Shown: positions 15,194 through 39,510 of the stretch, piece after piece | Layout: each line of letters begins with the position of its first letter | How positions within the stretch are numbered: position 1 is the first letter of the stretch | NCBI GenBank assembly: GCA_963575745.1 | Contig: CAUYUJ010015282.1 | Location: 1,249,651 to 1,313,650 of the forward strand | From: Prorocentrum cordatum | Taxonomy: Eukaryota; Sar; Dinophyceae; Prorocentrales; Prorocentraceae | Length of the DNA stretch: 64,000 nucleotides | Direction: 5' to 3' | Translations under genes and position numbers: made by a program | Notes under the pieces: model-generated | What the model was told of the DNA's origin: nothing | The model's database searches: none | The model's input: only the letters and a program-made list of their open reading frames with translations

Positions 15194-15272
15194 TTGAGAA
15201 GTTCTCTTACGTAGGAACAGATCAGGTCTTATTTTTCTAGAAAATACTTTTCAAATACTTTTCAAACACTTC
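15194..15272 (+). repeat. Terminal inverted repeat, left
   Basis: Terminal 25 bases, a diverged spacer, then AAAATACTTTTC and AAATACTTTTC in tandem followed by AAACACTTC (15,241-15,272). It pairs with 39,430-39,510. The tandem AAATACTTTTC words are the kind of subterminal motif that transposases bind. Confidence 0.85.
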
Positions 15273-15479
15273 ATGGTTTTGACAAAAAATCGATAACGTT
15301 AAACCTCAGGGGAGGAGTGGTAACGAAGAGGATGCAGAGTCGTATATCATATTCGAAGTCAAAAGGGCACTCGTGGAAACTGTGTTCGTTTTCAAGTAGT
15401 GGGGGGGGGGGTGCGCCAGCGCGGAGCCCGCGGAACGTGAGTGTTCCTTGCCCACCCGAATAAAGAAGGGGGCTCTTAA

Positions 15480-15672
15480 AACCTCGTTGGGGCCTCTTAG
15501 GGCGTCTGAGGGGACCCTACCCGTCTGTGGCGCCTTCGGAGGCCGTCTTGGTGCCATCTTGGAGCGCGTTTGGGCAGTCTTGGAGTTCTCTTGGGAGCCT
15601 CTTGGCCGTCTTGGTGCCATCTTGGAACGCGCTTGGGCCGACTTAGAGGCCTCTTGGGCTGTCTTGGAGCTA
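15480..15672. repeat. CTTGG-type minisatellite patch
   Basis: GTCTTGGTGCCATCTTGGA occurs twice (about 15,547 and 15,608), with GCCTCTTGG words around it. It lies between the left inverted repeat and the transposase gene and may be its 5' flank. Confidence 0.65.
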
Positions 15673-15722
15673 TATGTTAAGACTCTCCGGCCCCCTGTGC
15701 GGGAGGGAGGAAAGCTTCTCTC

Positions 15723-15742
15723 CCGCAGCCATTTTGGCTCAG
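15723..15742 (+). other. Relic dinoflagellate spliced leader upstream of transposase gene
   Basis: CCGCAGCCATTTTGGCTCAG matches the known DinoSL (CCGTAGCCATTTTGGCTCAA plus G) at nearly every position: one T-to-C change and one A missing at the end. A leader sequence in genomic DNA is the mark of a trans-spliced mRNA that was reverse-transcribed and reinserted. It lies 21 bases before the ATG at 15,764. Confidence 0.85.
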
Positions 15743-15763
15743 CGCCAACGCGGTTGGCAACGC

Positions 15764-18700
15764 ATGGCATCCGATAATGTAGACGATCGGCTACCACAGC
15801 CAAGTGATTCCAGCGACAATGAAAGTTTGTTTGAGCCTCTCGATGTAAACCCGTGGCTAGTAGATTCGCTTGAACACGCCGCCGCGGAGGCCAGCCCAGA
15901 CCAGCACATAGACGATTTCTTAACAGGTTGGATTTCTTTGTCGAACGGCGGCCTGGAGGACGACCCACCAGAAGAGAGACCCGACGTTGATCACCAGGAA
16001 AGTGCCATCATAGTAGCGGTACCAGATCCACCAGTGCCAGATCCACCAGAGCCGCCAGAACCAGAACCAGTTCCAGTTCCAGTCATGAGAGTTCACGCTG
16101 CCAGAGCGCAGCTTCGAGAGACAGCAAAGCAGGCCATACGTCTCGTAAAGACTGCACGTGGTGCAGCTTGTGGCCTAGAACGTATTGAGGACATCGACGG
16201 AATCGGTGCAGTACCACTTGATGAACCGCCGGAAGTAGGAGGAGAATCTGGCAATCACGACCACGACGTTAGTAGTGCCAATCATATTATCAGAGGAACG
16301 CCACAGGTCTTCAGAAACATCGCGAAGTTGATTCAGAATGGCAGCATCGACCGCATCAGAAAGGATGCGAATTTCGAGAAGGTTGCGAATGACATTGTAT
16401 CTAGACGTTGTGCGCTGCTCACAGTGAGCACTTACACAGAACATGCCAAGCGATTGGAGGTAACGAGGAAAGTTCTGTTGAAGACATCATCGAGATTAGC
16501 ATGTGTAGCATTGTTGTTGTTCTATTGGCAGATGCGAGACAACCTCGATCAGCTTTGCGAGAGGGTGTCGTCTTCGGACGGCGGGGTGCTTCACACTTTC
16601 ACTACGTCCTGGCGATACGACGAGACTCCAATGACAATGACGCTTATCGACCAGGACGAGCTGTACGGCGTGCCAGATGAGATATTGAAAAAACTACAAG
16701 CACTACCTCAGGGCACCGCTGGCGAGAGTGATAAGAGGGACACGGGGGTTGCAAAATTGCTACAATCAGAAATCGTTGTTGGAGCATTGGTTCACTACAA
16801 GTCGAAGTGGATCTTGTTCACGTGGAAGCCACCCTTGCCCCTGCTGTGCATGTCACGGACTACATCATCAAACTTTTATTTGTGCGTTGACTTGTTGCAA
16901 GATCTGTTGGACGTGGACTCCATCGGTTCCAGATTCAAGCGAGTCCAGCGGCTCTCCGCCAGCGACGGAGACGGCGCCATCGAGAGGGCTGAACGAGCAC
17001 GAGTACATGGGCAAGACACGAGTAAGCAGATGGTGGCAACGCTTCGCACACAGTGTTTCGTTCACAAGTGTTGTAACGCGAGAGAAGAGGTATGCAATTT
17101 GATGAAGTCAACGGTCTCCAAGCTGAAGCACGTTTCCTTGTCATTATCTTTCCAGAACCACTTGAAGCTGTTTCGCGGCGCAGTTCGCCGCGTTCTTTGT
17201 ACTGCATCGATTGAGAGAACTACACTTATCGCCCGCGACTCTTTGTGGAACGTGCGACAGTTGAACCGAGTACTGCCAGACACACCTGAGAATGTTTTTC
17301 GGAGGAATGAATTGCTGGCGATATTCAGTGGGCCCTGGCAGCAAGAGAATGGAAAGATTGTCGTGCACCGAGACGGTCCCGAGAGCGACGACGAGATCAT
17401 CAAGCAGCTCGTAACCAGAGGTACCAGAGCACTTGTATGGAATGGGCCAGGGTCATTCCCTAGCCGAAATTGGACACATTGCGAAGACTGCGTTCAATGG
17501 TGCAGCATAATGGAGTTGGTGTTCGGGGTGTTCTCGCGTGCGTATATGGACTACGCTGAGACCTTGTGCAGCGTTCGAGCGGGGAGTGCTGCAGCTATGA
17601 TTGTGGTGGGCGGCGATGTCGACGACGACGACGCCTTGCCGCTCCCAATAGAAGATGATCACGCAGAAGATGCTGGTGACGATGCCGATGGCGGCATAGG
17701 CATAGGCCCTGGCGCTGCAGCGGATCCTGCGGCCAAATGTGAGAAGCCCTCGGAGTCCAGCGTCGAGGAAGAAAAAAAAACGAGAACAGCACAGGTTTCG
17801 GCAGTCAGTGCGTGCATGGATTCAGTCTGGGAATGTCCTGGTCGAGAGCGTCATTCTGTTCACCGCCCTAGGCCCGCATATCAAGGTAATGGACAAGCTG
17901 CTGTGCATTGCTGGGGACAAATGGGAGAACAAGCAGAAAACGATCGAGATCAATGCAGCGCGCCAGGGGGGCGCTGCTGGTAGCGACCTTGGTGCGAGGC
18001 CGAAGCGGGAGATGAGGCTTCCTTTGGCGTACGAAGGCGTCGTCGAGAGCACGTTCATCGATGAGACTTTGGCGCTGATGACGAACCCTGATGCTTGGGC
18101 GATGATGCCAGCATCGCGTCGAACAAAGGCTTGGCAGACCAAGGTATTTACGTTGTTGGCTCGAGGGGCCTGCATCATGAACGAGCTGCGCGCGGCTCAC
18201 AAGAACTATCCGTACAAGACTTTCGGGATCATCAACCGACCTGATCTTGCCGATGAAGTTCTAGCGGATTCAGAGTGTGGGAAGCGCTTGGACGAGTGGT
18301 CTGCAGAGTTTGTTCGGTTCCATAAAGACTTGCTGTCTCCCAGTGCTCAGGCCGACCTGCGGAGCACAGCGCTCCTCATGTCAGATGAGGCAGTGCAGAT
18401 CGAGTACAGACATAAGAAAAACAGACGTTTCCAAGTGGGCAGGTCCGTGCAGCGACGAGTGCTTGATATGGCTGGGTTGAATACTTATTGGATCAATGAA
18501 CAGCTGGAGTCGTTAGCCAGAGGTTGTTGGGGGTTCAAATCAATTGCCAGGGCCGCCAGGGCCAGGGCCGAGCGTGGAGATGCGCCTGAAGCTGCTGGCA
18601 GTGACGGCCAAGGCGACCAGCCGAAGGCAAAATCTCGCAAGCTATCATCTTGGGACGCTTTTCGCGGTGAACAAACTGTCGGGCTGAAGGGGGCGGCTCG

Positions 18701-19664
18701 GCCCTCGCTGCAGCAGTTGTCCATCATGTACAAGGAACTCGGACCTGAGGGCATCCAGAAGTACCGGGACTTAGCTGACCGAGGGAACGAAGCGAAGGAG
18801 GCAGGGAACAAGAGGCCCTTCGGCGGCATCGGGCCCCAGTCGCAGTCAGATTCCAGTTCTTCGTCAAGAGCGCGCCCGTCATCAGACTTGCAATTGTCCC
18901 TCCTCAACCCAGCCCAGCTCGCCGAGAGAGGTCAGCTTGCGCGAGCCGCGCTGCGGAAGCATCGAGCTGCTGAGCTGGCTACGGCGGAGGCTGAGGCAGC
19001 CGACAATGCTGCGTGGGAGGCGTCACCGACTGGTCCCTTGGCTGACCTGGCCATGTGCGTGCCCTCTCACCTTCGCCGAGATCGTGACCACGGAGGTGCT
19101 GATGAGTGGAACGCTTCACCAGTTGGATCACGATTGTATTCGTTGTCTGCGAGGTTCCCGAACTGCAGGGAACTCGCGAAGCACATTGTTACCATGAAGA
19201 CGCATGGTTCTCCAGCAGCTGGTGGTATTCTTGGGATGATTGACAACGTGTACGAATCATTATGCGGAATTGTGCAGCATCACGAAGTGCCTGCCGTCGT
19301 CGCAGCAGGGCCGCCTAAGTTGTCCGACATCCTCTGCAAAGTTGCCAACCGTTGCTTGTGCGATCGGGATGGGAAGAACTCAGAGAAGATACGGAAACGA
19401 CTTGACGCAGCATCGAAGTCCTTCCAGAAGAATTCAAGTAATGTGACGTTACTCGCCCACGGTGAAGCAGTTGGCTTATTCATGGGGAGGGCCGTTGGCC
19501 CAGACTTGCCGAACCAGCTCGGGGGCACGTCGAGATTCTTCCTCTGCCACCTCGGGCACCTGAAGGCCAAGCCGTACAGGCTCAGCTGGGATAGCGTTGT
19601 TCAGGAGGGGAGGGCGTTGCATTGTTCGGGAAGGATCTCTCTTAGCAAGCAAACAAAGCTTGAG
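15764..19664 (+). CDS. hAT/RNase H-like transposase candidate (two frames joined at an A9 run)
   Basis: Starting at ATG 15,764, just after the relic leader, the frame runs to a stop at 17,983, but convincing sequence shifts one base forward at the A9 run 17,772-17,780 and continues to 19,667. Read across that point it is about 1,300 residues. An acidic, Pro-rich N-terminus (to ~130) precedes a domain with RYDETP near residue 285, SDGDGAIERAE near 400 and QCFVHK near 430. D...D...C-x2-H is the layout of hAT-type RNase H-fold transposases; a clear third acidic residue is not located. The C-terminal half is helical and rich in Ser/Ala. The 8-bp flanking duplication fits hAT. One extra A could be a mutation, a sequencing error or a slippage site. 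The stop at 19,665 is probably bypassed by splicing to 20,540. Confidence 0.6.
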
Positions 19665-20539
19665 TGAGTGAATGATAGGGAGGCGAAGGAGGAGGAGGAG
19701 GGTAGGGATTATTAGAAGGAGAGGCTGTTGAAGGGGATGAGAACGAGGAGAAGGTGGAGGAGTGCATGGGAGGATGGCGCGAGGTCACATGAAGCAAGTG
19801 TGCACCTGCTGCCACCCGCACCTGCTGCCCCCTGTATGACCTGGTCTCCCTGTTCCCACGCGTGCCCCTTTCTCATCTCACGCCGTGATGCTCTCCATCG
19901 GCCTCCCATGCTTGCTCGTCCACTCACCACTCACCCCTTTTCCCCAGGAACGGGGCGATGATGTTGTAGATGAGAATAATTGAAATGAGTAGATGATATA
20001 TCTGATAACAATTGAGTACCATCCCTATTTCAGGATAATAAACATAGAAAGCCACCCCTACTCTTATCACTTTGCTTCGACTCCTTGGGTCAGAAATCTT
20101 CGTTCCCCTGGAGCATTGGGGGCCCCTTGTTCTTCGTTATCCCGGAGTACCGCGCGTTCTTGGAACCGGAGCTCTTGGGGCCCCACTCTTCCGCAAATTC
20201 TGCACAAACAATGATGAAGCTTAGTGAAAGATATGTTCTATGATTTGCGTGCGGGGGGGGGGGGGACTGGGGCGGCGGATCGGAAGGAGGGTCGGGCATG
20301 GAGGGGTAAGAGGGAGGAGTTTTTTTTTAACATCCGAAAGGCGGTTGTCTTGGACGCACGCCGTAGCATCGTGCCCTCTCACTCGCCCCCTCCTGCTCTA
20401 GTGAGGGGAGGGCGGCGGCGGCCTTCAACTGGATTGTGCTGCTCTGGATGGGGCTCGCCTGGACGACGAGCTTCAATGGGTGGGGCGCGTGATGTCTGTG
20501 GTCTCATCGTTCTCACTTTCTGCTCCTTTCGACTTGCAG
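19665..20539 (+). other. Probable intron of the transposase gene
   Basis: The frame before it ends ...CTT GAG; read one base earlier, the donor is A|GTGAGTG. The 3' side is a pyrimidine-rich tract ending CGACTTGCA|G. Joining on the shared AG keeps the frame into 20,540 (...KLE-GVFDQ...). The interior holds GGAGGA runs, a G13 run near 20,253 and a T9 run near 20,321. Retained-G borders match those of the gene at 30.3-36.4 kb. Confidence 0.5.
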
Positions 20540-21313
20540 GGTGTTTTCGATCAGACAATGATGTGGGAAGTCGTCTTCTGGGATATCAATCTCACACACG
20601 AGCGCATCGGCATGTTTCTTCCAGATCGTTTCGATTGTATCCTTCGCGACGGCACAATACATTGCATATGGGACCCAAGGAAAACCAAAAAGGACCGTGG
20701 AGCCAATAACATTTCGTCTTGGGCTGCACTGGCAGACGAGTCCGAGTCGGATAGGGCAGATGATCATGTTTTCCATTCCCTTTCCGACGATGATCCAGAA
20801 TTGAGGCGCGACATAGGCATCCAATTGTTCGGGGCAGATTTTTATGCAAGTGATGCGTCGTCGTCCCTATTTTTGCCAACACCTGACGCATCCGAGGGTA
20901 GCGGCGACGAAGATCCTTCGTTGCCGCCTGGACCTCTTGTGGAGCCAGCGCCAGCGGGTCCTCCGTTGCCGCCTCCTGTGGAGCCCCCTCCCCCTCCACC
21001 AGCGCCACCTGCAGGAGGTTCCTATTTCCAGTTGCGCATTGGCGTTCTCGACGTGCAGCGTGCACCCTCCAAGAGGTCCAAGTGCACAGTGTGTGGCGAA
21101 TTTATCCCGCTTCGCGGGTTGCGTTTGGAGGTTAGCATTGCCGTGCGAAAGCCTGCGTGCTATCGGCACGTTGGTTGTTCAACTTACGACAACACTCCGT
21201 ATCAGGAGGGTAGTCATCGAATCATCTCGGATGCTAGGTTGCGCGACGTGTGGACTGATGAAGAGCTTGCCGAGATTGACGCATGCCTCGCGAGGCTGCA
21301 GGGGCCTCCATAG
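20540..21313 (+). CDS. Pro-rich protein segment with PARP-type-like zinc finger (probable last exon of transposase gene)
   Basis: 257 codons to a TAG. The segment opens GVFDQTMMWEVVFWD and continues through an acidic region and a Pro-rich linker (from about residue 135). The C-terminal part has KCTVCGEFIPLRGLRLEVSI...CYRHVGC, that is C-x2-C-x24-H-x2-C, close to the PARP-type zinc finger pattern but with a shorter loop; this implies DNA or nucleic-acid binding. If it is a separate gene, ATG at about 20,557 is the likely start. The preceding pyrimidine tract and AG, and frame continuity with the exon ending at 19,664, favour a joined gene of about 1,560 residues. Confidence 0.55.
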   Translation, partial: GVFDQTMMWEVVFWDINLTHERIGMFLPDRFDCILRDGTIHCIWDPRKTKKDRGANNISSWAALADESESDRADDHVFHSLSDDDPELRRDIGIQLFGADFYASDASSSLFLPTPDASEGSGDEDPSLPPGPLVEPAPAGPPLPPPVEPPPPPPAPPAGGSYFQLRIGVLDVQRAPSKRSKCTVCGEFIPLRGLRLEVSIAVRKPACYRHVGCSTYDNTPYQEGSHRIISDARLRDVWTDEELAEIDACLARLQGPP

Positions 21314-21620: not shown

Positions 21621-21622
21621 CT

Positions 21623-21707: not shown

Positions 21708-22316
21708 ATGGCCAAGCGGAGGCCCACGAGAAAGGTCAAAAGGGGCGTGCTCGAGCATCGTGCGTGGAAGACACAATCATCCAAGTGCAAGTCTTTCCAG
21801 CAGCTGGGGGAGGAGATCACCCAGCGGCTTAATATGAAGAAGGGGTCGGGGCAGGCGTTCCTCACGTGCTTCGCGAACATTTTCACTGAAGAGCTCCTGT
21901 TGGGAAAGAACTTCTTCTTGCCAGGCATCGGTGTTTTCGTGGTGGATCACAAAAACAAAGGGTCAGACCACGAGAAGATGGTGTTCGGGAAACTAATCAT
22001 GATCAAAGGCAAGCAGCCGCTTGCAGAGGTCAAGTTCACGGCTTTTGGCAACCTCGAGGAGGCGCTCACCAAGACCACCATCGCCGACAACTCTTCGAGC
22101 TCCAGCGACACTGAACACACGCAGGGGTCGTCACTTGCATCGTCCAGCTCCGTGGGGGACGCCACTGAGTTCGACGGCCTTTTTCCCAGCACGCCTCCGC
22201 CGCTCGAGCTTCGCGCCAGCCGCGCCGCCCTGCCAAGCCCCGTTGGCCCTTCCATGGTTCTGGAGCAGCAGTCTCGTGAAGTCGAGAGGCCATGCATCCC
22301 CACGAACGCCATTTAG
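21708..22316 (+). CDS. HU/IHF-fold DNA-binding protein with Ser-rich tail
   Basis: 202 residues from ATG 21,708 (CTTGGCCATGGCC context), the first good Met after the relic leader. A basic tail (MAKRRPTRKVKRG) precedes an HU-like domain: helices from FQQLGEEITQRL to about residue 65, then LPGIGVFVV near 72, the counterpart of the HU 'VGFGTFEV' strand, and PLAEVKFTAFGNLEEAL near 105-121, matching the HU C-terminal 'VPAFKAGKALKEAV' end. HU proteins bend and compact DNA; IHF/HU also assist some transposition reactions. Dinoflagellates are known for HU-like chromatin proteins, but this one sits inside a transposon and has an acidic/Ser-rich tail of 80 residues. The role as a transposition or chromatin cofactor is inference. 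Confidence 0.7.
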   Translation: MAKRRPTRKVKRGVLEHRAWKTQSSKCKSFQQLGEEITQRLNMKKGSGQAFLTCFANIFTEELLLGKNFFLPGIGVFVVDHKNKGSDHEKMVFGKLIMIKGKQPLAEVKFTAFGNLEEALTKTTIADNSSSSSDTEHTQGSSLASSSSVGDATEFDGLFPSTPPPLELRASRAALPSPVGPSMVLEQQSREVERPCIPTNAI

Positions 22317-22795: not shown

Positions 22796-23821
22796 ATGGC
22801 GGTATACCAGTACCAGAAATTGTTGATAGTTGTGGTGGCCGCCATGGCGGCCCCCGTTGAAGGTTCCCCGCACATCAAGGTGAGAGGCAAACCCTTGTTC
22901 TTCAGCATCGAGGTTGGCGGCCTCCAGCCAGAACAGTACGGTACCGTTCGTTTACAATTGCCAGTGGACTTGCAGGTCAAACCCGCTCCGCTACCTGTCC
23001 AACCAAATGTGCCGCCGCCAGTGGTGCTACCTCACATCGGTTCTCAACCACCAGCGGGCCCCGCACGGCAAGCTGATCCAGCGCCTGCAGTTCGTTCGCC
23101 CGCGCAGCCCGAGCGAACGGCTCAGAGTGCAAGTGCTCGTTCGACCGACCCAAACGCCATGCTCGCCATGAAGAAACGCAGTCACGACGATGACGGTTCT
23201 AGCGACGTGGAGGTGGTCTCAGCTTCAGGGGCCAGCGGTTCGGGTAGCAACGGGTTGCAACTTCCTGTTCCCAATTATCCTCCACAGGACGCGGGGGGCA
23301 ACGCGCAGGAAGCAGGAGGCCCACGTGTGAAAGTGAACTGGATCGCGAAGAACGCCCACTTACATCACGAGAGTGCCGACGGGACCTCCCAGAGTGCCGA
23401 CCAGAAGGACCGCCACTTGCCTCGTCCTGTTTCGGGAACCACGCCGCTGCTCCCGCATGAGACCTTGACGGATTCGCTCACAATTCCAGCGACGATTGAC
23501 CCGTATTCTTCACCGCCGAGATCCAAGAGCAACGGTGCCGAGTTGAGCGACGATCGCTTGCGCGCATCTTTGGGCCAAGATGGCGACGGAAGGTCAAGAT
23601 CGAGGTCACCCCCAGCAGCTAGGGGGGCACAGCCCGGCGATCATGTCAGTGACAGCGCGCCCTCTGGCCCCGACCAGCTGGAGCTCTCGCAGCCAGCATC
23701 CACAGAGATGCCATCTTCTCTAGAGAAGATCTTGGCAAACTTCGGCTTGCGCGGTGTAGGTGAGCCTTTGCTAGATGACACTCCTCCCCCTGACACGTTG
23801 CCACCCGACTCGCAGCTATAG
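22796..23821 (+). CDS. Pro/Ser-rich protein of unknown function
   Basis: 341 residues from ATG 22,796, chosen because it follows the relic leader closely; an alternative ATG at 22,844 gives MAAPVEGSPHIKVRGKPLFF. The N-terminus is partly hydrophobic (KLLIVVVAAMAAPV), then HIKVRGKPLFFSIEVGG, a long Pro-rich linker, an acidic patch after a KKR motif, and an Arg/Ser run (GRSRSRSPPAARG). It ends with an acidic Pro-rich tail. I do not recognise a domain. Position as the third gene of the mobile element suggests an accessory role. Unlike the HU-like protein it is likely mostly disordered. Confidence 0.55.
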   Translation: MAVYQYQKLLIVVVAAMAAPVEGSPHIKVRGKPLFFSIEVGGLQPEQYGTVRLQLPVDLQVKPAPLPVQPNVPPPVVLPHIGSQPPAGPARQADPAPAVRSPAQPERTAQSASARSTDPNAMLAMKKRSHDDDGSSDVEVVSASGASGSGSNGLQLPVPNYPPQDAGGNAQEAGGPRVKVNWIAKNAHLHHESADGTSQSADQKDRHLPRPVSGTTPLLPHETLTDSLTIPATIDPYSSPPRSKSNGAELSDDRLRASLGQDGDGRSRSRSPPAARGAQPGDHVSDSAPSGPDQLELSQPASTEMPSSLEKILANFGLRGVGEPLLDDTPPPDTLPPDSQL

Positions 23822-23877: not shown

Positions 23878-24065
23878 GTCATCGTCATCATCATCCTCAC
23901 CATCACCATCGTATACCACCATCACCACCATCACAGCCAACATTCGATCATCATCATCACCCTCACCACACTTTTCATTTGCATGCTCGTCGTCACCGTC
24001 ACACCATCATTGCCTCCCTTCCTCCTCCCCTCCATCCTTCCATCCCTCCTCGCCCTCCCCTCCTC
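23878..24065. repeat. CATCAC/ATC microsatellite and CCTCC tract
   Basis: Imperfect ATC-ACC trinucleotides, then TCCCTCC-type sequence. The same pair of tracts follows the second gene group at 36.5-36.8 kb. Confidence 0.85.
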
Positions 24066-24069
24066 CCAT

Positions 24070-24960
24070 AGGACAAAGACACGTCTTGGGTTAGACTTAG
24101 ACACGTCGGGTTAGACATGGTATGGTCTCTGTGCGTCTTGAGTTAGGTGCGTATGTCTTGGGTTTCAAGTATGCGCATGGCATCTCAAGGCAGTCTTGGG
24201 GCCATATTGGGACTCTTAGCGCAATCTTGGGCAGTTTGGGGCTAGTAGGTATGTATGCTTTGGGTTGCACGTAAGCTTTAGGCATTCAGGGGCATCTTAG
24301 GGCGTCTTCGGTCCCTGATGGGCGTCTTGGGGTCTTTATGCACATCTTGGGCATTAGCCCTAGGCTTCCGCCTGCCGCCCGTTTGATCTCCAAGGGTTGG
24401 ATTGGGTCCGCGAATGGGGGCTCCCACGGGCGGGGGCGAAGGTCACGACCACCCTCCCTTCCAGTCCCAAGGGCTGGGAGGGGGTGCGAGGGTGGTGACT
24501 GCCCGTCCCAACCCCCTGTTCGCGGACGAATGGGGGCTCGCACGGGCGGGGGGGAAGGTCACGACCCCCCTCCCCTCCAGCCCAAGTGGCTCGGAAGGGG
24601 GGGTGGGGGGGGGCGAGAGTAGTGACTGTCCGTCCCAACTCCTGTTCGCCTAGATCCCGTGATCCGCGTGAGGGGTGCGCCTTTCTTGTGTATTCTTTGG
24701 GCTCTTCGGGGGCGTCTTGGGCACGTTGGGATCTTGCCGTGCCCGCTTGGTTTGCCGTGCTGGTCTGCCTTGCTGCTCTGCAGTGCTGGTCTGCCGTGTC
24801 GGTCTGTTGCGCTGGTTTGCCATGTTGGTTTGCTTTGTTGGTCTGCCATGTTGGTCTGCCGTGCTGGTCTGCTCTACCGTGCGGGTCCATATGGGTCCTC
24901 GGCCTTCCAGGGCCCAGGGGTCTCAGGGCTGCCGTGCGGCTCTCTTGGGTGCTCTTCGGG
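24070..24960 (+). repeat. Internal module R, copy 1
   Basis: Matches 36,805-37,700 in order and orientation: GGCATCTCAAGGCAGTCTTG, ACGTAAGCTTTAGGCA, GAGGCTTCCGC-type sequence, then GGGGGCTCCCACGGGCGGGG with GGTCACGACC. Inside, a ~117-bp piece is tandemly doubled (about 24,405 and 24,521). The end is CCGTGATCCGCGTGAGGGGT and a run of TGGTCTGCC words. Confidence 0.85.
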
Positions 24961-25028
24961 TGTTTGGGGAGATTGCGAGGATGTCTCACGCGACGCGTTG
25001 GGGAGATGGCGAGGATGTCTCAAGCGAC

Positions 25029-25262
25029 AGGTGGTCTGATCTCCCAATGATCCCTGGTGCGAGCGTGGGTGAGGGCAGCAACGCACCAAACAAGAACATA
25101 AACAGGTGGTCTGATCTCCCAATGATCCCTGGTGCGAGCGTGGGTGAGGGCAGCAACGCACCAAACAAAAAAAAAAACATAAACAGGTGGTCTGATCTCC
25201 CAGTGATCCCTGGTGCGAGCGTGGGTGAGGGCAGCAACGCACCAACAAAAAAACAATCCAGT
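25029..25262 (+). repeat. Three tandem copies of a 75-81-bp unit with growing A-tract
   Basis: Units begin AGGTGGTCTGATCTCCCA at 25,029, 25,104 and 25,185 and end CAGCAACGCACCAA plus an A-rich linker. The linker changes from AACAAGAAC in copy 1 to a long A-run in copy 2, accounting for the longer second unit. Confidence 0.95.
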
Positions 25263-25554
25263 GGCGCTGCCGCGCGATTCCGCCACCGCGCTGATGATGA
25301 TGGCGATGTGGTGGTGCTGATGGTGCACGCCGTCCTCCATCCGCGTAACAATTGCACGCGTCTGAAACGATTGTGTGGGCTCATTGGGCGTCCTGGCTCT
25401 CCTCCTCATCCTCCTCCACATCTGCGTCTGGCCCTCCCCTCCTTTTCCGCAGCATTCTCTTTCAGCCGCCGACAGGGAGGAGGAAAGACGAATGGAAATA
25501 TACATGTGGTTGTTTAGACGTTTCCGTGTGCGCCAGACGTTCCACCGAGGGCAC

Positions 25555-26015
25555 CGCGCGCCGCGCTGTCGGCGCGTCAAGCACCAATCTGTTAGATTGC
25601 GAGTCTGCGGGTCGCATCGCGGCAAGTCCTCCTGGTGCTTCAGCGCGCTGGCGAGCGCGCCGCGGCTTGTCCTCAACGCGGCAAGGCCGCCTCGTACGCG
25701 AGACGCCGCGTTTGCGAATCATGAGCTTCCCCGCGTTGCCGCGGGCGTGCAAGCGACGCACCCCAGCGGGGGATTATTTCTTTGGCGTCCGCGGCCGTCG
25801 ACGCGGGCCACTGTTTCGCGCACGCGATAAGGTCCGATAGGGTAGTTCCCGTGCAACTGCAATCACTCAACGCGCTGTCCCGCGTAAGCATTACGCCTTT
25901 TCCAACGCCCACGGGGCTGTGGGGCCGCATCGGCCCTGTGCTTGTATGGCGCCGTTGTGCGGCCGCGACGTTTGGCAACGTGCGCTTTAAACTGTTCGTT
26001 TGCGCTGGGTGGGGC
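25555..26015 (+). repeat. Internal module A, copy 1
   Basis: Resembles 38,590-39,025: GCGAATCATGAGCTTCCCCG, GCGGGCGTGC, CGATAGG, CGCTGTCCCG, CCAACGCCCACGGGG and TTGTATGGCGCCGTTGTGCG are shared. Here A precedes module B; in the second block B comes first. Confidence 0.8.
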
Positions 26016-28190: not shown

Positions 28191-28191
28191 C

Positions 28192-30345: not shown

Positions 30346-31293
30346 ATGGCCTGGCGCGGCCAGGATGAGCCACCCGAGCTGTGTAAGTTCGCGGGTTCCG
30401 ATGTGGAGGTAGTTACTCCATACCTTGGGAAACGCGAGGGATACTGGAAGTGTCTCGCGTGCGACAAGTGGCTACAGAACGCGCAGCACCTGGTCAACTC
30501 TTCTCACTTGGACAAGGCTAAGACGTGGTGCTATGGAACTTCCACTGGCCCCGTTCGCAGGACGGCGCGCGCAGGTGATCTGATTTGGGAATCCCGCAGA
30601 GTCAATCAGAGATATTGGACTGATTCTCCTCCGACCGACGACGAACCCCCGATCTGGTCAAGTCAGAAATGGCAGCACGAAGGCGGAGGGCACCAAGTAC
30701 AGCATGGAGGCGTCAACGCAGTACAGCAAGGACATCAGGGAAACGCAAGCGGAGTACATCACGGACAGAAAGGACGTGGAGCAGTGCCAGTTTTCCAGAT
30801 GGGGAAAGGGTCCGACACAGTCGCGTCGCAAGTCGCATTGCCGCCAGGATTGCCGAGCAGCTCAGGTGAGTTGCAAGAGTCACCTCGCTGGTCATTGGCC
30901 AACTCCGTGGCGCACCTGAAGACCTTGCAGGAGGACACTTTGATCCCGATGGCCAAGACCATGGAGATGCTGAAGAACACTCACGAGGATGTGGTGGCCC
31001 CAGCGATCACAGAAGCGCAGGAACAGCAGGAGGAGATGATGGCCAAGATAATCAACATCGAGACCATGCAGACCAGCATGCGCGAGGAGATGGTGAGCAA
31101 GATCATTGGCATCGAGTCAGATATGAAAGAGATGAAGGATAAGATTGGCGTCATCGAATCTTTGTTGAACTCACAGTGTCTTCGTGGCCCTCGTCGTCCA
31201 GCACCTGGATTGAACAGTTCGTCCAGCACAGGGTCTTTGTTGCCGGCGTCGGTGACCCCGTTTGCGGGCGCCACGCAGCCATTGCCTCAGCAG
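30346..31293 (+). CDS. U1-type zinc finger plus coiled-coil protein (probable first exon of large gene)
   Basis: 316 codons from ATG 30,346 (CGTTGGCCATGG context). Near residue 37 YWKCLACDKWLQNAQHLVNS then SH is C-x2-C-x10-12-H-x5-H, a U1/C2H2-like finger of a type I recognise as frequent in dinoflagellate proteins. A linker rich in Gln/His/Gly follows, and from about residue 210 to 285 heptad-like sequence (AKIINIETMQTSMREEM and related) predicts a coiled coil, so it probably oligomerises. In this frame a stop follows at 31,294; with the same retained-G intron border as elsewhere in the element (CA|GTAGGTCAG ... TGTCA|G), it joins in frame to 31,827. As a stand-alone gene it would end at 31,296. 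Confidence 0.6.
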
Positions 31294-31826
31294 TAGGTCA
31301 GTGTAGTAGTCATGCAGGTATTCTGGAGGTGCATGTGAAGTGTAATCATGATGATGACGATGACGGTTGATGGCGGTGACCCCAGCTCAGCAGTTTTTTT
31401 GTGCTCAGCACGTTGCAAACAGCAGCATGCATTGAGCATCTTGCCTGGCCTCATGGCTGGGCCCGTCCATAAGCGGCCAGGCGGGTGTGACAGTCTGCCG
31501 ACCTTGATTATGGTGAAAAGCTTCTATGGCAATACATGTTTGTATCCTGGAGTGACGTCGGTGTAGCAGATATGATCTCTTTGGGTCACTTTTGGGGAGC
31601 CTTTGGGTCGTCTTGGACTGGCACGCGGCACGCCCGCAGACATCGCAAGTGTGCTCCCACGCTTCACATTTCAGCTTCAGTTGTTGATCGTCAGACATGT
31701 TTGTATCGAGGCGTTCGTGCTGCAGACCCAGCGGTCAGCACAGCTGCACGTGGAGGATCGCCCTTGTACTTCGTTTTACCAGTCACCACCACCGCAGCTT
31801 CTGTACTGTAACTTGTCACTTGTCAG
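31294..31826 (+). other. Probable intron
   Basis: The boundaries carry CAG on both sides and preserve frame. The interior includes a GATGATGACGATGACGG run and no convincing coding sequence. If it is not an intron, it is an intergenic spacer with the next start at ATG 31,830. Confidence 0.4.
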
Positions 31827-32996
31827 CCAATGTCCAGGAAGCGTGGCGATCCCTCTGCCATTCTCCAGACGCCTCCTGCGAAAGCTGCCAGGTGCGGTCG
31901 AGCGTCATCTGAGGCGTGCTTCTCCGTGGCTACAGCGTCCAATGCAGGGTCGGCCAGAGGCAGCGCCAAGAGTTCTGAGGTGAAGGGCGTCAAGAAGGGC
32001 GTCTTGAAACGTAAGCCCGACCAGCCCATGAAGCTTTCACAGGCTTTTCGCGCGGCAGCAAAGCAAGGTATCAAGCTCCTGGGCTCCGTCAAGTGCATGC
32101 GCAAGTCCTGCTCTACAACGCCAGACAAGGTCGAGAAGTGGGGCGCTTACGAAGAGAGTAAAGCCAAGGATGGGACCTGGCTCTCGAAACCCACAGGGCC
32201 CATCTGCGGAGACTGCCAAGACCACTGCTGGTTTGGGTACGAGAACGTAGGTACACCGCAGGAAGTGCTCCAGAAGTGCAACGGTGATAAGGACTTCGAC
32301 ACTGACTTCTCCATTTCGCTTCGCTTGAGGAAGAAACGCCTGCAGCTTTTCTACCCGTCCAACGTGTGCCGCAGTGAGAAGCGTTCCTTCAAGGCCATCT
32401 CGCGGTATCGAGGTCTCCGCCCAACCGAGTTCGAACGGATCTTCAAGAAATCCCCTGTCGAGGCGGGTCGTAAACTTCAGGACTTGCTTGACCCCCACAC
32501 GAACGAGAAGTGCAAGGGCGTGCTGCTGAAGGACAGCACGCAGATCGACCCGTCTATTGGCATCGAGTACGAGATGAGCGTTGAAATCGAGACGAGCGAG
32601 ACAGAGTTCAAGCTCCACCATTCGCAGCAGCGGCGCCAGGCCCAGGCTCGCGAGTACTTCGATGAGATGAATCGCCCATCAGGCCTCGAGTGCGACGAGG
32701 CCAGGAAGCTCCGCCTTTGCTCCGACACGTACGAGGATATCAAGGCCCACATCGAGGCTGGAGGAGTCGAAGTGCCTGCAGAGGAAGATGAGGACCTTGC
32801 AGGAGATGATGACCAACAGGATGAGGATGACGCGGTTCCTGGCGCCGCCAATAGCGAGGCTGGCGGCGAGGGGTCCATCGCGCAGTCGCCTGCGATCAGG
32901 GGCTTCTCGAACCAGCTCGTGGTAGACAACGTCACGATTTACACGGTGAAGAAGGTAGCGACGGCGGTCTCAAAGGGCGCACCTTTGCCCCTCAAG
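31827..32996 (+). CDS. Large element protein, zinc-ribbon-like exon
   Basis: The frame holds ATG 31,830 and reads MSRKRGDPSAILQTPPAKAA, a basic N-terminus, then a Cys pattern CMRKSC ... ICGDCQDHCWFGY around residues 88-135, which looks like a zinc-binding module. A helical, charged region follows (QQRRQAQAREYFDEMNRP) and an acidic stretch near residue 320-345. I do not recognise the family. The frame runs on to 33,158 but becomes Ser/Pro-rich junk translated from a CCTCC tract, so an intron starts at about 32,997: TCAAG lies at both borders and splicing keeps frame. ATG 31,830 would start a separate gene if the upstream exon is not joined. Confidence 0.65.
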
Positions 32997-33215
32997 TCAA
33001 GCATTGGTCGGGATTTGGCATCCTCCCAACCCTCTTCTCCCTCCCCATCCTTCCTCTCCTCCTCCGAGTTATCCTTCTCCTCCTCTTCCACTTGTTCCTT
33101 CTCCTCTTCCTGCTGTCACCTCCTCTCATCCTCCTTCTACTCGTTCTCCCCCTTCTAAGTACTACTCTCCTCCTCCTCCTCCACCCCCTGCCTCCTCCTC
33201 ATTTCCCCGATCAAG
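32997..33215 (+). other. Intron with TCAAG direct repeats at its borders
   Basis: CTCAAG|TCAAGC on the left and GATCAAG|CTTCAC on the right; the interior is a CT-rich tract with TCCTCC words. Removing it joins ...GAPLPLK to LHLRGNWIALKVHMA in frame. Confidence 0.6.
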
Positions 33216-33749
33216 CTTCACCTGAGGGGCAATTGGATCGCCCTGAAGGTTCACATGGCGCTTGGCGCCGAGCAGCTGCAGGCGTTTGACGACGCCGCGT
33301 CGGAAACTGGTTTAGGACAAAAGGCGGACAGTGCAACCGCGCGGATCGACGGCATCAACCTCGCCGTGATTGCAGCAGGTGCAAAGCGTTTCGGGCACAG
33401 GCGCGTCAGGATGGAGAAGCTGCGCGACGAGATGTCGAGCAGCGACAACAAGAACAAGCGGATTGATGCTGCTCGCTTCACTAAGCGGCTGGAGCTCGCA
33501 GATATCGCAGAGGATTGCTCCAAGGTGGAAAACATCATGGCCTGGGAGAAGCAAGTCCTAGAGAAGAAGCTTCAAGATTTGGTGGCTGCGGACATGAACT
33601 TCCCTGTGACGTTGGCTGGGAACCTGGTGGCCAGGGAGCTGCGGGAGATCGGCGAGCAGGTCGTCACGGATGGGGTCAACATCGAGGACTTTTTCCGCGT
33701 CGGCCTGCCGTGGGACGTCTCGGCGGTGGATGCGGAGGCCCATTGCCAG
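33216..33749 (+). CDS. Large element protein, third exon
   Basis: 178 codons beginning LHLRGNWIALKVHMALGAEQ, mostly alpha-helical and charged. Part of it, from 33,255, is the only Met-initiated frame. It includes RRVRMEKLRDEMSSSDNKNK and ends DVSAVDAEAHCQ. The in-frame stop after CQSSH at 33,761 is probably intronic. No domain was recognised. Confidence 0.6.
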
Positions 33750-33973
33750 TCTAGTCACTAGTCGTCCAGTCTTGCGTTGGAAGAGGAGGAAGAAGATGAT
33801 GACGAGGAGGAGGACCAGGGTGACCAGAGAACGAGGAGGGGGGGAGGTGGAGGAGGATGCAGGGGAGGAGCAGAATGAGGAGGAGGAGGAGGAGGAGGAT
33901 GTGGAGGAGGGAGGAGAGCGAGGAGGAGGCGCGCCTGCCGTTGTCAACTGTCATTGGCCGTGGTCGTCATCAG
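33750..33973 (+). other. Intron with GAGGAG microsatellite
   Basis: CAG at both borders (TTGCCAG|TCTAG ... CATCAG|GCC). The interior is GGA/GAA-rich. Splicing restores a frame of similar helical character. Confidence 0.6.
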
Positions 33974-34606
33974 GCCGACGACGTGGAGGACCAGCCCATC
34001 GACCAAGACTCGGAGTTCAACCCTCTGCACCCTATGGCATTCATGATCCCGTCCGAGACGGGAGCCGTTACTACGAACTTCGAGAAGTGGTGTTTCACTT
34101 ATTTCATCGCGCCGATTGCGCGTGCAACCGACAACAACACCCAGCAGAAGATGATGGACATTCTTGCAGAAGGAGAAAAGCACATGTTGAACCAGCCCTC
34201 AGATACCGATGAGGCTATCGTGAACTCTATTTCTGAAGTGGTGAAATCTTCGCGCGCGATTCGGAGCCTCTTGGCCCCGCGGAATGCAATGCTGGCCAAG
34301 GCGCTTGAGGCAGTCTCGGCGGCCACGGCAACAGATACTTCAGGAGGAACTTGGCAGGGCGTCGCCTACAACACCTGGGCTCTGCTGAAGGACCTGTCGT
34401 ACTTCAAAGTTTACATCGTCTCTTTCCGTATGACCAGGGCCACGCACTTTGACAGCGCGTTGAAGATGGCAGAGCACCTGGACAATATCAACTTGTGCCC
34501 CACCGAAGTCGGCAAGGTCGAGGGGCACGCGAGGGCCTTGGCGGATTTCTCCACCATCAAGAAAAACACGCGCGCAGGAGATTCGGCCTGTCCATGGGGG
34601 GCTCAG
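33974..34606 (+). CDS. Large element protein, fourth exon
   Basis: 211 codons from ADDVEDQPIDQDSEFNPLHP to ACPWGAQ. The sequence is balanced and non-repetitive, for example NFEKWCFTYFIAPIARATDN and KDLSYFKVYIVSFRMTRATH, with predicted helices. I do not recognise a family. The acidic start resembles a linker between domains. Confidence 0.6.
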
Positions 34607-35071
34607 TCAGTAGGGTCGTAAGGGAACTTTGGGCCTGATTCGTCTAGCGTTCGGTGCCTGCTCAGCCTCTTGTGAGTCCAGAGACCCCAGCAAGTCCAGC
34701 TCTTGGAAATTCCAGGGATACCAGCAAATCCAGTCTTATGAGCTTCGCAGTTCCATGTAAAGCTTTTGGGTGCTCCAACGCCATAACATTGCATCGTCTG
34801 GCCTAGCCCAGCGCATGGGGGCTTTTTCGGTAAGAGTGAGCGCGTTTTCGTTTCTTGATGTGCGCCTTTGGTCCCCTCCTGTTCTTTGTGGTGTATGTTT
34901 TTGATTTGAGGTTATCTTGCAGCCCAGCAAACGGGGTCCCACATTGTCCAAAACGAAGCAATGGACGGATGAGGGGGTGACAGATTGGGTTTTGGAAGGC
35001 AGCGTAATCGCAGAGCCCCCATACAGCCTCAGAGTTCCCATGGGACGGACCGTGGAGGGACTGTGTCTCAG
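34607..35071 (+). other. Intron with CTCAG borders
   Basis: GCTCAG|TCAGTAGG on the left and GTCTCAG|TGGGAG on the right. 465 bases of unique sequence with no coding content. Standard GT-AG removal would break the frame; retaining one G keeps it. Confidence 0.55.
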
Positions 35072-36385
35072 TGGGAGTCTACGTTGTCCAGCATTGCCGA
35101 CCGAGGGGCGCAACTTCTGAGCAGCGTGCAGAAGGGCGAGTCGCAGGAGTACAACCTCAACAGCGCCCCATCTTTGCAGGGCACGATGCACGTCGTGGAT
35201 ACTTACCGGCTGTTCTTCGATGCCTTGCGGAAATCGGGGTTGAAGATGAAGGCGTCTTGGGATGCAGCCGCAGAGATGACGCACGATATTGGGGCACGCG
35301 CTGGCGCAGCGATGTCCCGTGAGATATTGAAGCCGTTCATGAACAAGGTAAAGGGTAGTGATATTGTCAACGATGAGGAGAAGCTCGACGAGTTGGTGGC
35401 GAAACTGCTATCCGTTCTCACGTCCTCCGACGTGTCCGACCTCTACAGCGAAGAGCTCTCCAAAGATGTCAAGCGTGTCATCCAAGAGATCATCAGCGCC
35501 GTTACGTTCGAGGTGAAGCCAGGTACTATGACGTGCAAGGAGGCCCAGTTACCCTCGGTGATTGACAAGCTGTCGGAGTTCGTACCGAAGAGCGGCGAGG
35601 AGAAGGCAGAGTTGCACTGGGTATCTAAGTTTGTCGATGATATGGTGCAGTTGGTATCCAAGAAGGCGGAGATCATCGACGCGGGTGGTAACGTGGCGGA
35701 CAGGATGAAGGACGACCGCTGCCAGGAGCTACTTCAGTCCGTCGCAGGAATGGCCAAAACATTGACGGCATTGAAGGTAAAGGTTGGGAGCCAAAGCGAA
35801 GTCAGTTTGCCTGCTGTTAGCGATAAGCACCTCGAGGACACGAAGCAGTTCGTGGCTGACCATGCACCGTGCTTGTACAGCTCCATGAAGGAGACGATTA
35901 CTACGTTTGTCGACGCCCCGTACGACAAGGACTCGCCGCCCTCGGAGAGTGTCAAAATGGTGGCTCGTGGTATCCTGCTGGAGCCCAGCCACGAGAAGTG
36001 GAGTGACGCACTCAAGACGGGCACCATCGAGGAGATCATCGCCATTGCGAAGAAGTCGCTCATGGTACTTAAGGTGGACTCATACAACAAGGCGTGCGCT
36101 GAGTTGGGTGCGAAGTTGCAGACATTGAAGTTCACTCGCGAGTACTGCGACATCCAGGTTGACGACACGCTCGAGAAGGATTACACGAAGCTCTGCGATG
36201 GCATGCAGCTCACTTGCAAAGAGTGCGTGCTGGCGGCGCTGCTCGTCAAGTACCACGGCCAGGACACGAAGCTCAAGACCGCGCTCAACAGGGAGAAGGG
36301 CGCCCTCAAGAAGAGCAAGCATTGGGAGCTGGTCGATCCCAAGCTGCAGGCGGTTGTGGATAAAGCGATTGCATTCTTGCTCTAA
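35072..36385 (+). CDS. Large element protein, last exon
   Basis: 437 codons to TAA, starting WESTLSSIADRGAQLLSSVQ. The sequence is Lys/Glu/Leu-rich and helical throughout, for example ELVAKLLSVLTSSDVSDLYS and KVDSYNKACAELGAKLQTLK, with few Cys. It looks like a repeated-helix scaffold. No family was recognised. With the other exons the protein is about 1,530 residues, comparable with the transposase candidate. A 10-bp-stem hairpin follows the stop by 35 bases. Confidence 0.65.
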   Translation, partial: WESTLSSIADRGAQLLSSVQKGESQEYNLNSAPSLQGTMHVVDTYRLFFDALRKSGLKMKASWDAAAEMTHDIGARAGAAMSREILKPFMNKVKGSDIVNDEEKLDELVAKLLSVLTSSDVSDLYSEELSKDVKRVIQEIISAVTFEVKPGTMTCKEAQLPSVIDKLSEFVPKSGEEKAELHWVSKFVDDMVQLVSKKAEIIDAGGNVADRMKDDRCQELLQSVAGMAKTLTALKVKVGSQSEVSLPAVSDKHLEDTKQFVADHAPCLYSSMKETITTFVDAPYDKDSPPSESVKMVARGILLEPSHEKWSDALKTGTIEEIIAIAKKSLMVLKVDSYNKACAELGAKLQTLKFTREYCDIQVDDTLEKDYTKLCDGMQLTCKECVLAALLVKYHGQDTKLKTALNREKGALKKSKHWELVDPKLQAVVDKAIAFLL

Positions 36386-36446: not shown

Positions 36447-36494
36447 TCGGTGGCGAAAAATATGACAAACGTCATGGTCGCAACCACCATGACT

Positions 36495-36800
36495 CATCCC
36501 AACACGAGATGGCCACCGCCATCATCACACAATCACGCTCATCATCATCACCACCCACCGCCATTCACCATTCACCATCACAACATCAGCATTGCCATCG
36601 CCATCACAACCACACAACCATCACCTCACCATCACACTTATCATTCATCATCACCACCACCAGCACCACCATCACAATCATCATCTCATCACCATCACCA
36701 CGCGCACCACCTTCATGTTCATCACCACCATCACACCACCACCGCTCCCTCCCTCCCATCCCTCCCTCCCTCCCTCCCTCCTCATCCCCCCGTCCCTGCG
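36495..36800. repeat. CATCAC microsatellite and CCTCC tract, second block
   Basis: Imperfect CATCAC/CACCAT repeats over about 250 bases, then TCCCTCC repeats. It corresponds to 23,878-24,065. Confidence 0.9.
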
Positions 36801-36804
36801 TAGG

Positions 36805-37735
36805 TAGATCAAAGGCGTGTCTTGGGTTAGTTAGTTTACGTATGTAATGGCTAGGGGGTATGTATGTCTTGGTCTCTGCACGTTTTGGGTTAGGTGTGTA
36901 TGTCTTGGCATCTCAAGGCAGTCTTGGTGTCATCTTGGGGCTCTTGGCTTGGCGCAATCTTGGGCAACTTTGGGCTAGGTATGTATGTATTGGTCTATAC
37001 GTAAGCTTTAGGCACTCTGGGGCAGTCTTAAGGCGTCTTGGGGCCCGTATGGGCGTCTTGGGGCCTCTATGGACATCTGCGGCATTCACCCGAGGCTTCC
37101 GCTTGCCGCCTGTTTGATCTCAAAGGGTTGGAGGGGTCCGCGAATGGGGGCTCCCACGGGCGGGGGCGAAGGTCACGACCCCTCCCCCCTTCCAGCCCCA
37201 AAGGCTGGGAGGGGGTGCTAGGGTGGTGACTGCCCGTCCTAACCCCTTGTTCGCGGGCGAATGGGGGCTCCCACGGGCGGGGGCGAAGGTCACGACCTTT
37301 CTCCCCTCGAGCCCAAGTGGCTTGGGGGGTGCTAAGGTGGTGACTGCCCGTCCTAACCCCTTGTTCGCCTAGACCCCGTGATCCGCGTGAGGGGTGCGCC
37401 TGTCTTGGGTATTATTTGAGCTCCTTGGGGGCGTCTTGGGCACGCTGGGCTCCTGCTGTGCCCGCTTGGTTTGCCGTGCTGGTTTGCCCTGCTGCTCTGT
37501 AATGCTGGTCTGCCGTGTCGGTATGCTGCTTTGGGTTGCCATGTTGGTCTGCTTTGTTGGTCTGCCCTGTTGGCCTGCCGTGCTGGTCTGCTCTGCCGTG
37601 CGGGTCCATTGGGGCCCTCGGCCTTCCAGGGCCCATGGGGCCTCTGTGCCAGAGCCCAGTCCCTGTTCGCTTAGACCCCGTGATCCGCGTGAGGGGTGTG
37701 CCTTTTTGGGATATTTCTTGGCATCCTGTATAGGG
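36805..37735 (+). repeat. Internal module R, copy 2
   Basis: Corresponds to 24,070-24,960, again with the ~117-bp piece doubled (about 37,133 and 37,250) and ending in TGGTCTGCC words. A second CCGTGATCCGCGTGAGGGGT copy lies at 37,676. Confidence 0.85.
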
Positions 37736-38024
37736 CCAAGTATTGGCTCCTTCCCTCCTCCTCCTTCTCTTCCGATGCCTTGGCTCAAAGGGTTTATCTG
37801 ATTATCTGCGCGCCCCCCACGCAGCCACATACGGCATAGTGGGGGCGTCTGCGTTGGTGCTGGGTTGCAGCTGTTTGGGCCGCGAAGTGGGCTTGCCGCA
37901 ACTAAACGGGTCCACGCTGGGCCACGCCGTGGGCCCTGATTCAGTAGACTTAATCGGCGCTCGGCCGCGCCGTGGGCTCTGCCACGGCAGAGGGCCCCAC
38001 CTTTGCCTGCGCCCCCCCAATCCC

Positions 38025-38310
38025 CTGCTCCAAGGCAGGGCCTGGGGCGCGTGGCTGATATAGCGGGGCAAAGGGCCACGGCCCGTGCCCCGCTGCAACT
38101 TAGCGCGTGGCCGCTGGGCCAAGCCGTGGGCCGTGTAACGGCCGAATTGGCCGACGACCATCATCATCCACCAATCTTTCATCATAAAATGGGGGGGGGG
38201 GGAGGGCAGGCCGCTGAGCGCGAGAAGTTCCACTTCATTCAGCTCCGATGGACAGCCTCCCGACGTTCGAGATGCCTCTCGGCGTCTCCGCTCAGGGAGG
38301 GCGCTCTGCT
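38025..38310 (+). repeat. Internal module B, copy 2
   Basis: Corresponds to 26,165-26,480; here a G12 run and a CATCATCCACC insertion lie in the middle. Confidence 0.8.
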
Positions 38311-38589
38311 GAGCTGGCTGCCCTCTTTCTCTTGTCTATATTCTCTTTCTCTTCCTGCTCCCTGTCTCTCTCTGCAGCCGTCGCCGCGAAGAGTGGCCCG
38401 CCCGCGCAGGCAGGGCTCTTCGGCCACCTGTCGCCACTGTGCTGCCCTTTAACCTGCCCTCCCCCATCCCTCCCCCTCCCACTCCTTGGGAAACCCCGTC
38501 GCCTTGTTGGTCAAGGCGATTGGTCTCCCGCCGCTGGCTCGAACGTAAAGAATGCACGCGCGGGGGGCCCCGCGGCGACCCGATGCGGT

Positions 38590-39025
38590 CCGACCGCAAG
38601 TGCGGGATCCGCACGTGAAGCACCGATCTGTTGGATTGCGACCTTGTGGGTCGCATCTTGGCAATGCCTCCTGGCGCTTCGGCGCCCCGCCGAACGCGCC
38701 TGGGCTTGTCCTCAACGCGATAGCGCCGCCTCGTACGAGAGGCGCCGCCTTTGCGAATCATGAGTTTCCCCGCGTTGTCGCGGGCGTGCGTCCGACGCCC
38801 CAACGGGGGCCTAGCTCCTTGGCGCCCCGCGGCCGTCGTCGCGGGGCGCCGTTGCGCGCCCGCGATGAGATCCGATAGGTGGTTACTGATCAAATGCAAT
38901 CACACCTCGCGCTGTCCCGTGTAAGCTTCTACGTTTGTTCCAACGCCCACGGGGTTTTTGGGCCGCCTCGAACCCTGTGTTTGTATGGCGCCGTTGTGCG
39001 GTGCAAAGGTTGGTAACCTGCGCCG
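38590..39025 (+). repeat. Internal module A, copy 2
   Basis: Corresponds to 25,555-26,015. It is followed by about 400 bases without a recognised gene, then the right inverted repeat. Confidence 0.8.
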
Positions 39026-39429
39026 CGGTAGACCCTTTTGCGCTGGCGTGGACGGCAGCGCGCGCGCGGTTGAAGACGCGTCGCGCGGGCAATTCGCCGA
39101 ACCAGAGTGAGCCGCGTTGCGGCCGCTCCTCAACCCGCAGCGCGAAGGACCGATGTGCGCGCTCGAAAACTTGCGCATTACTGCGACAGCTTTGGCCACC
39201 GATGCAGATTGGGCCGCCATGCCTCGTCGCGCCCAGCGCCAGCGTTTGCCATTGCGGTATTTGGACCACGCGGTCGTTGCTTCGCGCGTGCCGATGGGCG
39301 CACGCCGCGCAGTTTGTGGGGCGGCGCTTGGCGTGCGATCACGTAGAACATCCTTGTCAAATGACAGCGTAGTGGCAGCGATCGCAAAATCGATTTTTTC
39401 GCGCATGTTCCATTTTTTTATGTTTTTCA

Positions 39430-39510
39430 GAAGTGTTTAAAAAGTATTTAAAAAGTGTTTTATGTTGAGATATGAGCATGTCAAGTTCCTACGATAAGAG
39501 AACTTCTCAA
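39430..39510 (-). repeat. Terminal inverted repeat, right
   Basis: The reverse complement begins TTGAGAAGTTCTCTTATCGT, with AAACACTTTTTAAATACTTT then TTAAACACTTC further in. It aligns to 15,194-15,272 with one indel in the outer 26 bases and 29/32 identity in the inner segment. Confidence 0.85.

Follow-up and report, generated by a model that had tools for sequence, protein, structure and literature searches.

A 24.3-kb DNA transposon with terminal inverted repeats and several genes in the dinoflagellate Prorocentrum cordatum

A stretch of 64,000 nucleotides from Prorocentrum cordatum (contig CAUYUJ010015282.1; the whole stretch is called the window below) contains at positions 15194–39510 a unit of 24,317 bp whose two ends match in inverted orientation and which encloses several genes. 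Does such a long unit move as one piece and, if it does, what kind of mobile element is it? A preliminary description, made from the sequence alone, had called it a 24.3-kb transposon with terminal inverted repeats (TIRs) and multiple genes. The genome assembly bears this out, with five complete copies, paired ends and 8-bp duplications at the insertion points. We consider the element very probably a giant class II cut-and-paste DNA transposon, moved by its own RNase H-type DDE transposase.

Five complete copies with paired ends and 8-bp duplications

The host assembly (4,128,499,153 bp in 21,875 contigs) was searched with the left 107 bp of the unit, match counts being lower bounds. At least 18 matches were obtained: nine left ends of the element's own family (96–100% identical), four left ends of a related family (73–79%) and five right ends (78–79%). 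Within the own family, called family 1, seven loci were read over most or all of their length and four more (C17873, C15704, C20347 and C19599) at one end only. The preliminary description had proposed to look elsewhere for inverted ends paired 5–30 kb apart, for alignable interiors and for flanking 8-bp duplications, and all three were found. Besides the window copy, four further complete copies (C15223, C19625, C20496 and C18355) have ends 24.2–24.3 kb apart; the whole interior is colinear among the complete copies; and perfect, mutually different 8-bp target-site duplications (TSDs) flank five of the five (TGTTAGGG, AACTAATG, GACTACAA, CCCTACAG and TCTTGGGG). The complete copies measure 24,187–24,328 bp and, because they are pairwise 97.8–99.0% identical (ungapped columns), their insertion is judged recent. 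The colinearity of the interior means that it moves as part of the element. The unit thus has what defines a class II transposon, namely TIRs at both ends, a TSD of fixed length and dispersed copies with the same ends, and there is strong evidence that the whole 24.3 kb transposes. It is hardly credible that two unrelated solo ends came to lie in a repeat-rich region, or that a host gene cluster underwent segmental duplication: the satellite-like flanks and the tandem paralogy of the region would suit such an origin, but it is refuted by five copies that share exact end points and have five different 8-bp duplications and flanks.

At the window locus, the left TIR (15194–15218, 25 bp, plus strand) reads TTGAGAAGTTCTCTTA-CGTAGGAAC and matches positions 39510–39485 of the reverse strand with one indel, as had been noted before, the right TIR being 26 bp long (39485–39510, minus strand). 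At least nine such left ends, the window's included, are present in the assembly at 96–100% identity over 107 bp. A second inverted match, of 32 bases with 29 identities, had likewise been seen correctly and consists of subterminal repeats of the AAATACTTTTC type (15241–15272 on the plus strand at the left end and 39430–39461 on the minus strand at the right end). Local alignment of the two ends extended over 83 columns with a score of 77 under a first scoring scheme and over 101 columns with a score of 47.5 under a second, for which 500 mononucleotide shuffles gave no score above 24; taken alone, the inner part of the match scored 27.5, a value reached by none of 500 shuffles. When up to three mismatches are permitted, the terminal 16-mer TTGAGAAGTTCTCTTA occurs twice in the window, both times exactly and at the two ends of the unit only. 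An internal copy, which would be a sign of two elements fused at the internal duplication described below, was not found in the window at that tolerance.

The identical sequence reported on the two sides is also there: the TSD TGTTAGGG occupies 15186–15193 and 39511–39518. Both flanks consist of degenerate satellite rich in TGTTAGGG, in which the chance that two positions share an 8-mer is about 0.0016 (0.005 for any length from 7 to 12). For this reason the duplication of the window locus is by itself suggestive, and it is settled by the perfect 8-bp duplications of the other copies. The window contains in addition a paralogous site devoid of the insert (11270–11669), which aligns with the joined flanks at a score of 216, whereas a single flank combined with element sequence scores 131 or 137; none of 200 shuffles of the left flank attained this score (maximum 209). 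On its left side the site shares satellite only. Since the unique sequence farther left of the two satellites (14100–14993 versus 10000–11300) has no match (score 64, null maximum 86), the argument depends on satellite on the left and on unique sequence on the right, and the site does not separate one copy of the duplication from two (216 versus 218). From its alignment, this site is probably an empty paralogous insertion site, and it supports the insertion without being proof alone. The degenerate, TGTTAGGG-rich satellite blocks lie on one strand (11264–11669, and 14950–15193 together with 39511–39791) and belong to a repeated unit that holds the insertion site; pieces of 11441–14553 match 39564–40306, and tandem paralogy is present in this region.

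Two further family-1 copies are irregular. In the C19088 copy, element positions 11078–17231 are repeated, a duplication of about 6 kb that could be real or an assembly artefact; the right end of this copy lies beyond the sequence read. The C4435 copy is cut by the contig start, contains an insert of 3.3 kb and has about 1.6 kb of other sequence ahead of its right end. This insert (about 2961–6228 of the piece read) sits inside the region of the HU-fold gene described below; it carries CTTCGCATCAG near its left end and, inverted, CTGATGCGAAG near its right end and may be another transposon.

A second family and the gene content of the unit

The related ends found in the assembly belong to a second family. 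Its element at C19044 (121807–151035) is 29,229 bp long, is flanked by the perfect duplication CCTCTGCG and has a left end 79% identical to that of family 1 and a right end 77% identical over 139 bp. Another copy, at C18427, is about 30.4 kb long and lies within a (TAG)n tract, with TAGTAGTA next to each end. An 8-bp duplication is thus seen at two of the two family-2 loci having both ends, the one in (TAG)n being uninformative. For the copy at C114 and a second copy at C19044, a right end was not found in the pieces examined.

The coding signal in the unit is almost wholly on the plus strand (as judged by a codon table for which the unit's own transposase gene was the training set), and the gene list of the preliminary description stands in outline, with all genes in one orientation; its transposase corresponds to a single gene interrupted by a frame break (15764–17770 and 17781–19667). 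A second gene (20492–21313, 273 amino acids, aa) follows, with a sub-threshold PARP-type zinc finger (E 0.0014 in family 1 and 0.095 in family 2) and an acidic W-x-x-L-A motif, which recurs at the N-termini of the transposases of five of eight relatives and of the window protein. Single occurrences of this motif are marginally above shuffles (0.058–0.104), and three proteins with two occurrences are clear (≤0.002). Next come a gene for an HU-fold DNA-binding protein (21708–22316) and a Pro/Ser-rich open frame with a weak coding signal (22796–23821). The HU fold had been proposed before, and the match to PF18291 lies just under the curated cut-off (E 1.4e-5, 25.6 versus 26.2 bits). Farther right are an open frame with a possible C2H2-like finger (30346–31296; Pfam E 0.21, not significant) and the region of a large gene, whose first two open segments (31830–33761) form a single 642-aa frame in the C20496 copy and whose third and fourth lie at 33857–34621 and 35186–36385. 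The preliminary description was right about a large gene at 31.8–36.4 kb; the zinc finger that it placed there is unproven, no significant domain match being found.

The C19044 element has the transposase, the second gene and the large gene region in the order and orientation of family 1, and the amino acid identity over aligned codons is 56% and 59% for the transposase halves, 54% for the second gene and 42–64% for the large gene region. Between the families, the transposase halves mismatch at codon positions 1/2/3 at rates of 0.31/0.28/0.56 and 0.28/0.23/0.49, the second gene at 0.36/0.29/0.55, and segments one and two of the large gene at 0.27/0.25/0.50 and 0.28/0.20/0.39; the third-position excess is clear for the transposase, the second gene and the first half of the large gene region. 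It is weak in the fourth segment (0.37/0.34/0.47; 44% aa identity) and absent in the third (0.24/0.41/0.31; 42.5% aa identity over 120 codons). Alignable coverage between the families is 97% for the left end, 99% for the right end, 86% for the transposase, 45% for the second gene and 54–64% for the segments of the large gene, as against 2% and 4% for two non-coding blocks. The HU, Pro/Ser and finger genes were not found in family 2 by tblastn (E 1e-3) or phmmer (E 1), searches that a very diverged homologue might escape, and because they were undetected there, they look like cargo specific to family 1. From these comparisons, the transposase, the second gene and the large gene look like a conserved core.

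The two non-coding blocks (23889–26452 and 36619–39164) are the two copies of an internal duplication, whose longest segment is 79.6% identical over 1,066 columns. It is a partial duplication, 74–80% identical, with two segments swapped in order, and one copy ends near the right terminus; a further copy was not found in the window by blastn. Among the five complete copies, the blocks have 55 and 38 indel runs, as against none in the finger gene, in the second and in the fourth segment of the large gene, and two, both of 3 bp, in its first segment. Nested host insertions were considered as the source of the non-coding interior and rejected, the complete copies sharing the whole interior colinearly.

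This gene content bears on an origin as a viral-type integrating element (a Polinton/Maverick or a polinton-like virus), for which size and TIRs would speak. The target duplication of Teratorn is TTAA, and the hallmark of Starships is a tyrosine recombinase of the DUF3435 type. Ten open frames of the unit scanned against Pfam had no DUF3435 match, and the element has TIRs. The same scans had no match for polymerase B, capsid, packaging ATPase, protease or retroviral-type integrase, in line with the earlier statement that genes for DNA polymerase B, integrase, protease and capsid are missing, nor did nine further segments, of which eight came from another copy and from family 2; the sole capsid-like line is a caulimovirus coat domain with E 0.076, far below the cut-off. 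Polintons/Mavericks resemble the element in being typically 15–25 kb long with TIRs and many genes (PMC6431247, as excerpted), but they differ in the genes just named, and the element has 8-bp duplications in five of five copies. Teratorn, a fusion of piggyBac and a herpesvirus, is likewise described in the excerpted text as a giant transposon with a DDE transposase (PMC6431247); here, no herpesvirus-type domain was found among the frames scanned, and the duplication is 8 bp and not TTAA. Neither the N-terminal half of the transposase nor the HU protein had a phage protein match, and scans of IMG/VR with P0001, P0004, the window core, the HU protein and two segments of the large gene detected no relative. 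We therefore regard a viral-type origin as very improbable.

Outside the unit, ten open frames had no Pfam match above the cut-off, and the window had no Rfam or tRNA hits. The window also contains an array of units of about 102 bp with high identity (4111–6096) and a diverged pair of long repeats (42545–43931 and 46297–47780, 76% over 1.5 kb) with TGA/GAT-rich trinucleotide arrays. Its GC content is near 0.60, and that of P. cordatum is given as 59.7% in the part of PMC11453091 available.

The transposase-like protein and its nearest known counterparts

The protein encoded by the split gene is about 1,300 aa long, and its two halves match one protein colinearly. The N-terminal half contains two Asp codons (16619 and 16964) and a CxxH 30 residues past the second Asp; the C-terminal half, in another frame past an A-run, contains a candidate catalytic Glu codon (18402). 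Eight homologues were found, several of them fragments, in which RYDETP, [TS]DGD and CxxH are common where the region is spanned; an IExxHxxxRR-type motif is present in all three that reach its region, the CxxH lies 26 residues past the second Asp in the two proteins measured, and the distance from the second Asp to the Glu is 463–469 residues. A structure model of the N-terminal half (medium confidence) has three strands, helix, strand, helix and strand, which is the RNase H order, with the Asp of residue 101 in strand 1 and that of residue 216 just past strand 4. Motifs and model together argue that the large protein is probably a transposase, and D/D/E chemistry would fit it.

Searches with this protein returned few relatives. 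When the entire N-terminal frame was the query, none was found at E 10, likely because of its low-complexity N-terminal words, and restriction to residues 205–610 gave three (about 8,000 candidates sharing most words were scored in each case). A scan of bacterial and archaeal genomes with P0004 detected no relative. Fold searches with the model gave weak matches, none of them clearly related; the matches listed included no hAT structure, which excludes nothing. In Pfam, the window halves, P0001–P0005 and P0007 had only unrelated sub-threshold matches and none of transposase type, and a majority-rule core of the family had no match at E up to 10. The protein probably forms a separate, uncatalogued family.

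The frame of this gene is broken in six of the six family-1 copies checked, at breaks that differ among copies; two family-1 copies read through the A-run site (frames of 904 and 1,039 aa), and a family-2 copy is likewise in pieces. Either an intact source copy is unseen, or the copies move in trans, or the assembly contains errors. Comparison of the five complete copies revealed no codon-phase bias of their substitutions, as expected if copies decay once inserted.

In architecture, with a CxxH past the second Asp, a long stretch before the Glu and an 8-bp duplication, the transposase appears most like the hAT/KDZ group. The statement of the preliminary description that the unit fits none of the known giant types was too strong: giants of the KDZ (Kyakuja-Dileera-Zisupton) superfamily are similar in size, in the length of the transposase and in having an 8-bp duplication. 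In the parts of the sources available, Zisupton and an element of the Dileera lineage have 8-bp duplications, Kyakuja one of 7 bp, and Zisupton has TIRs (PMC12730594); KDZ transposases can exceed 1,300 aa, the elements are usually longer than 10 kb and carry accessory genes, giant ones reach 30.3 kb in Ectocarpus and include an actively transposing one of 31.7 kb in Chlamydomonas, and the transposase of giant families is frequently predicted to be pseudogenised (PMC12477816). By analogy, KDZ seems the nearest known kind, and the element may work like one. A true member of the Zisupton or Dileera branch, beyond the reach of Pfam and with accessory genes as in fungi and brown algae, would account for the shared duplication, size, transposase class, accessory genes and decayed frames, but the Pfam scans gave neither a match of the transposase to a KDZ model nor a TET/JBP domain in the frames tested, and the set of PARP-type finger, HU-fold and large proteins is undescribed for KDZ in the excerpts available. 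We presume that Pfam contains a KDZ model. Membership in KDZ is unproven because no sequence match was found, and we regard it as possible, if rather doubtful.

The target sites lead to another comparison. Of 11 distinct sites, 7 have TA at positions 4–5 of the duplication (binomial 4e-10, for a pattern picked after looking); the sites without it are TCTTGGGG, CCTCTGCG, CTCTGGAG and CCCCAAAA. The 11 comprise the five complete copies, one family-2 copy and five single-end sites, the 8-mer shared by C17873 and C4435 being counted once; C18427, which lies in a microsatellite, was excluded, as were C114 and the second C19044 copy, whose flank is that of the first. The usual hAT transposase is about half as long as this one of about 1,300 aa. 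A giant, strongly diverged hAT transposon of the Buster type would explain the 8-bp duplications with their central TA, the CxxH 26 or 30 residues past the second Asp and the short subterminal repeats; the excerpted consensus of Buster target sites is nnnTAnnn (PMC3517528). Against it stand the twofold length of the transposase, its distance of 463–469 residues from the second Asp to the Glu, the lack of any hAT domain in the Pfam scans described above and the size of 24–30 kb. The link to Buster, an analogy, would consist of the central TA and the CxxH only, and we find this reading unlikely.

Proposed movement and its meaning

What is observed are discrete paired ends, several copies, perfect 8-bp duplications and, in a second family, the core genes retained between diverged but related ends. 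For a transposon moved by its own DDE enzyme, they suggest the following course. The transposase would bind the terminal and subterminal repeats and excise the 24.3-kb unit, likely by a cut-and-paste mechanism of the hAT/KDZ-like DDE kind, and the unit would be inserted at a staggered cut, which generates the 8-bp duplication, with a preference for sites with a central TA. The HU-fold protein, by bending DNA, and the PARP-type finger protein may help to join or protect ends that lie 24–30 kb apart. Copies with broken frames would be moved in trans.

Size is believed to be a constraint on eukaryotic DNA transposons. The excerpted text of PMC6431247 reports that transposition efficiency falls above about 6 kb of cargo; here, the 24.3-kb unit is inserted at at least five sites in the 4.13-Gb assembly, and the second family measures 29–30 kb. 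In the open-licence literature, no paper on this element was among the matches listed, and in the available parts of PMC11071213, on a dinoflagellate, giant transposons appear in the reference list only. We tentatively propose, as a reading that may well not hold, a new superfamily of giant eukaryotic DNA transposons with a DDE lineage of its own, a conserved core and an HU-fold protein recruited in one branch.

The two families separate core genes, which are kept, from cargo found in one family only, which makes the accessory roles in moving so long a unit testable. Dinoflagellate nuclei are poor in nucleosomes and use HU-like proteins, according to the available part of PMC11453091, and the relevance of such a nucleus to the element becomes testable as well. 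If the proposal is true, this could be the first eukaryotic transposon to carry an architectural protein of bacterial type with which to join its ends; to our knowledge, no earlier one has been described.

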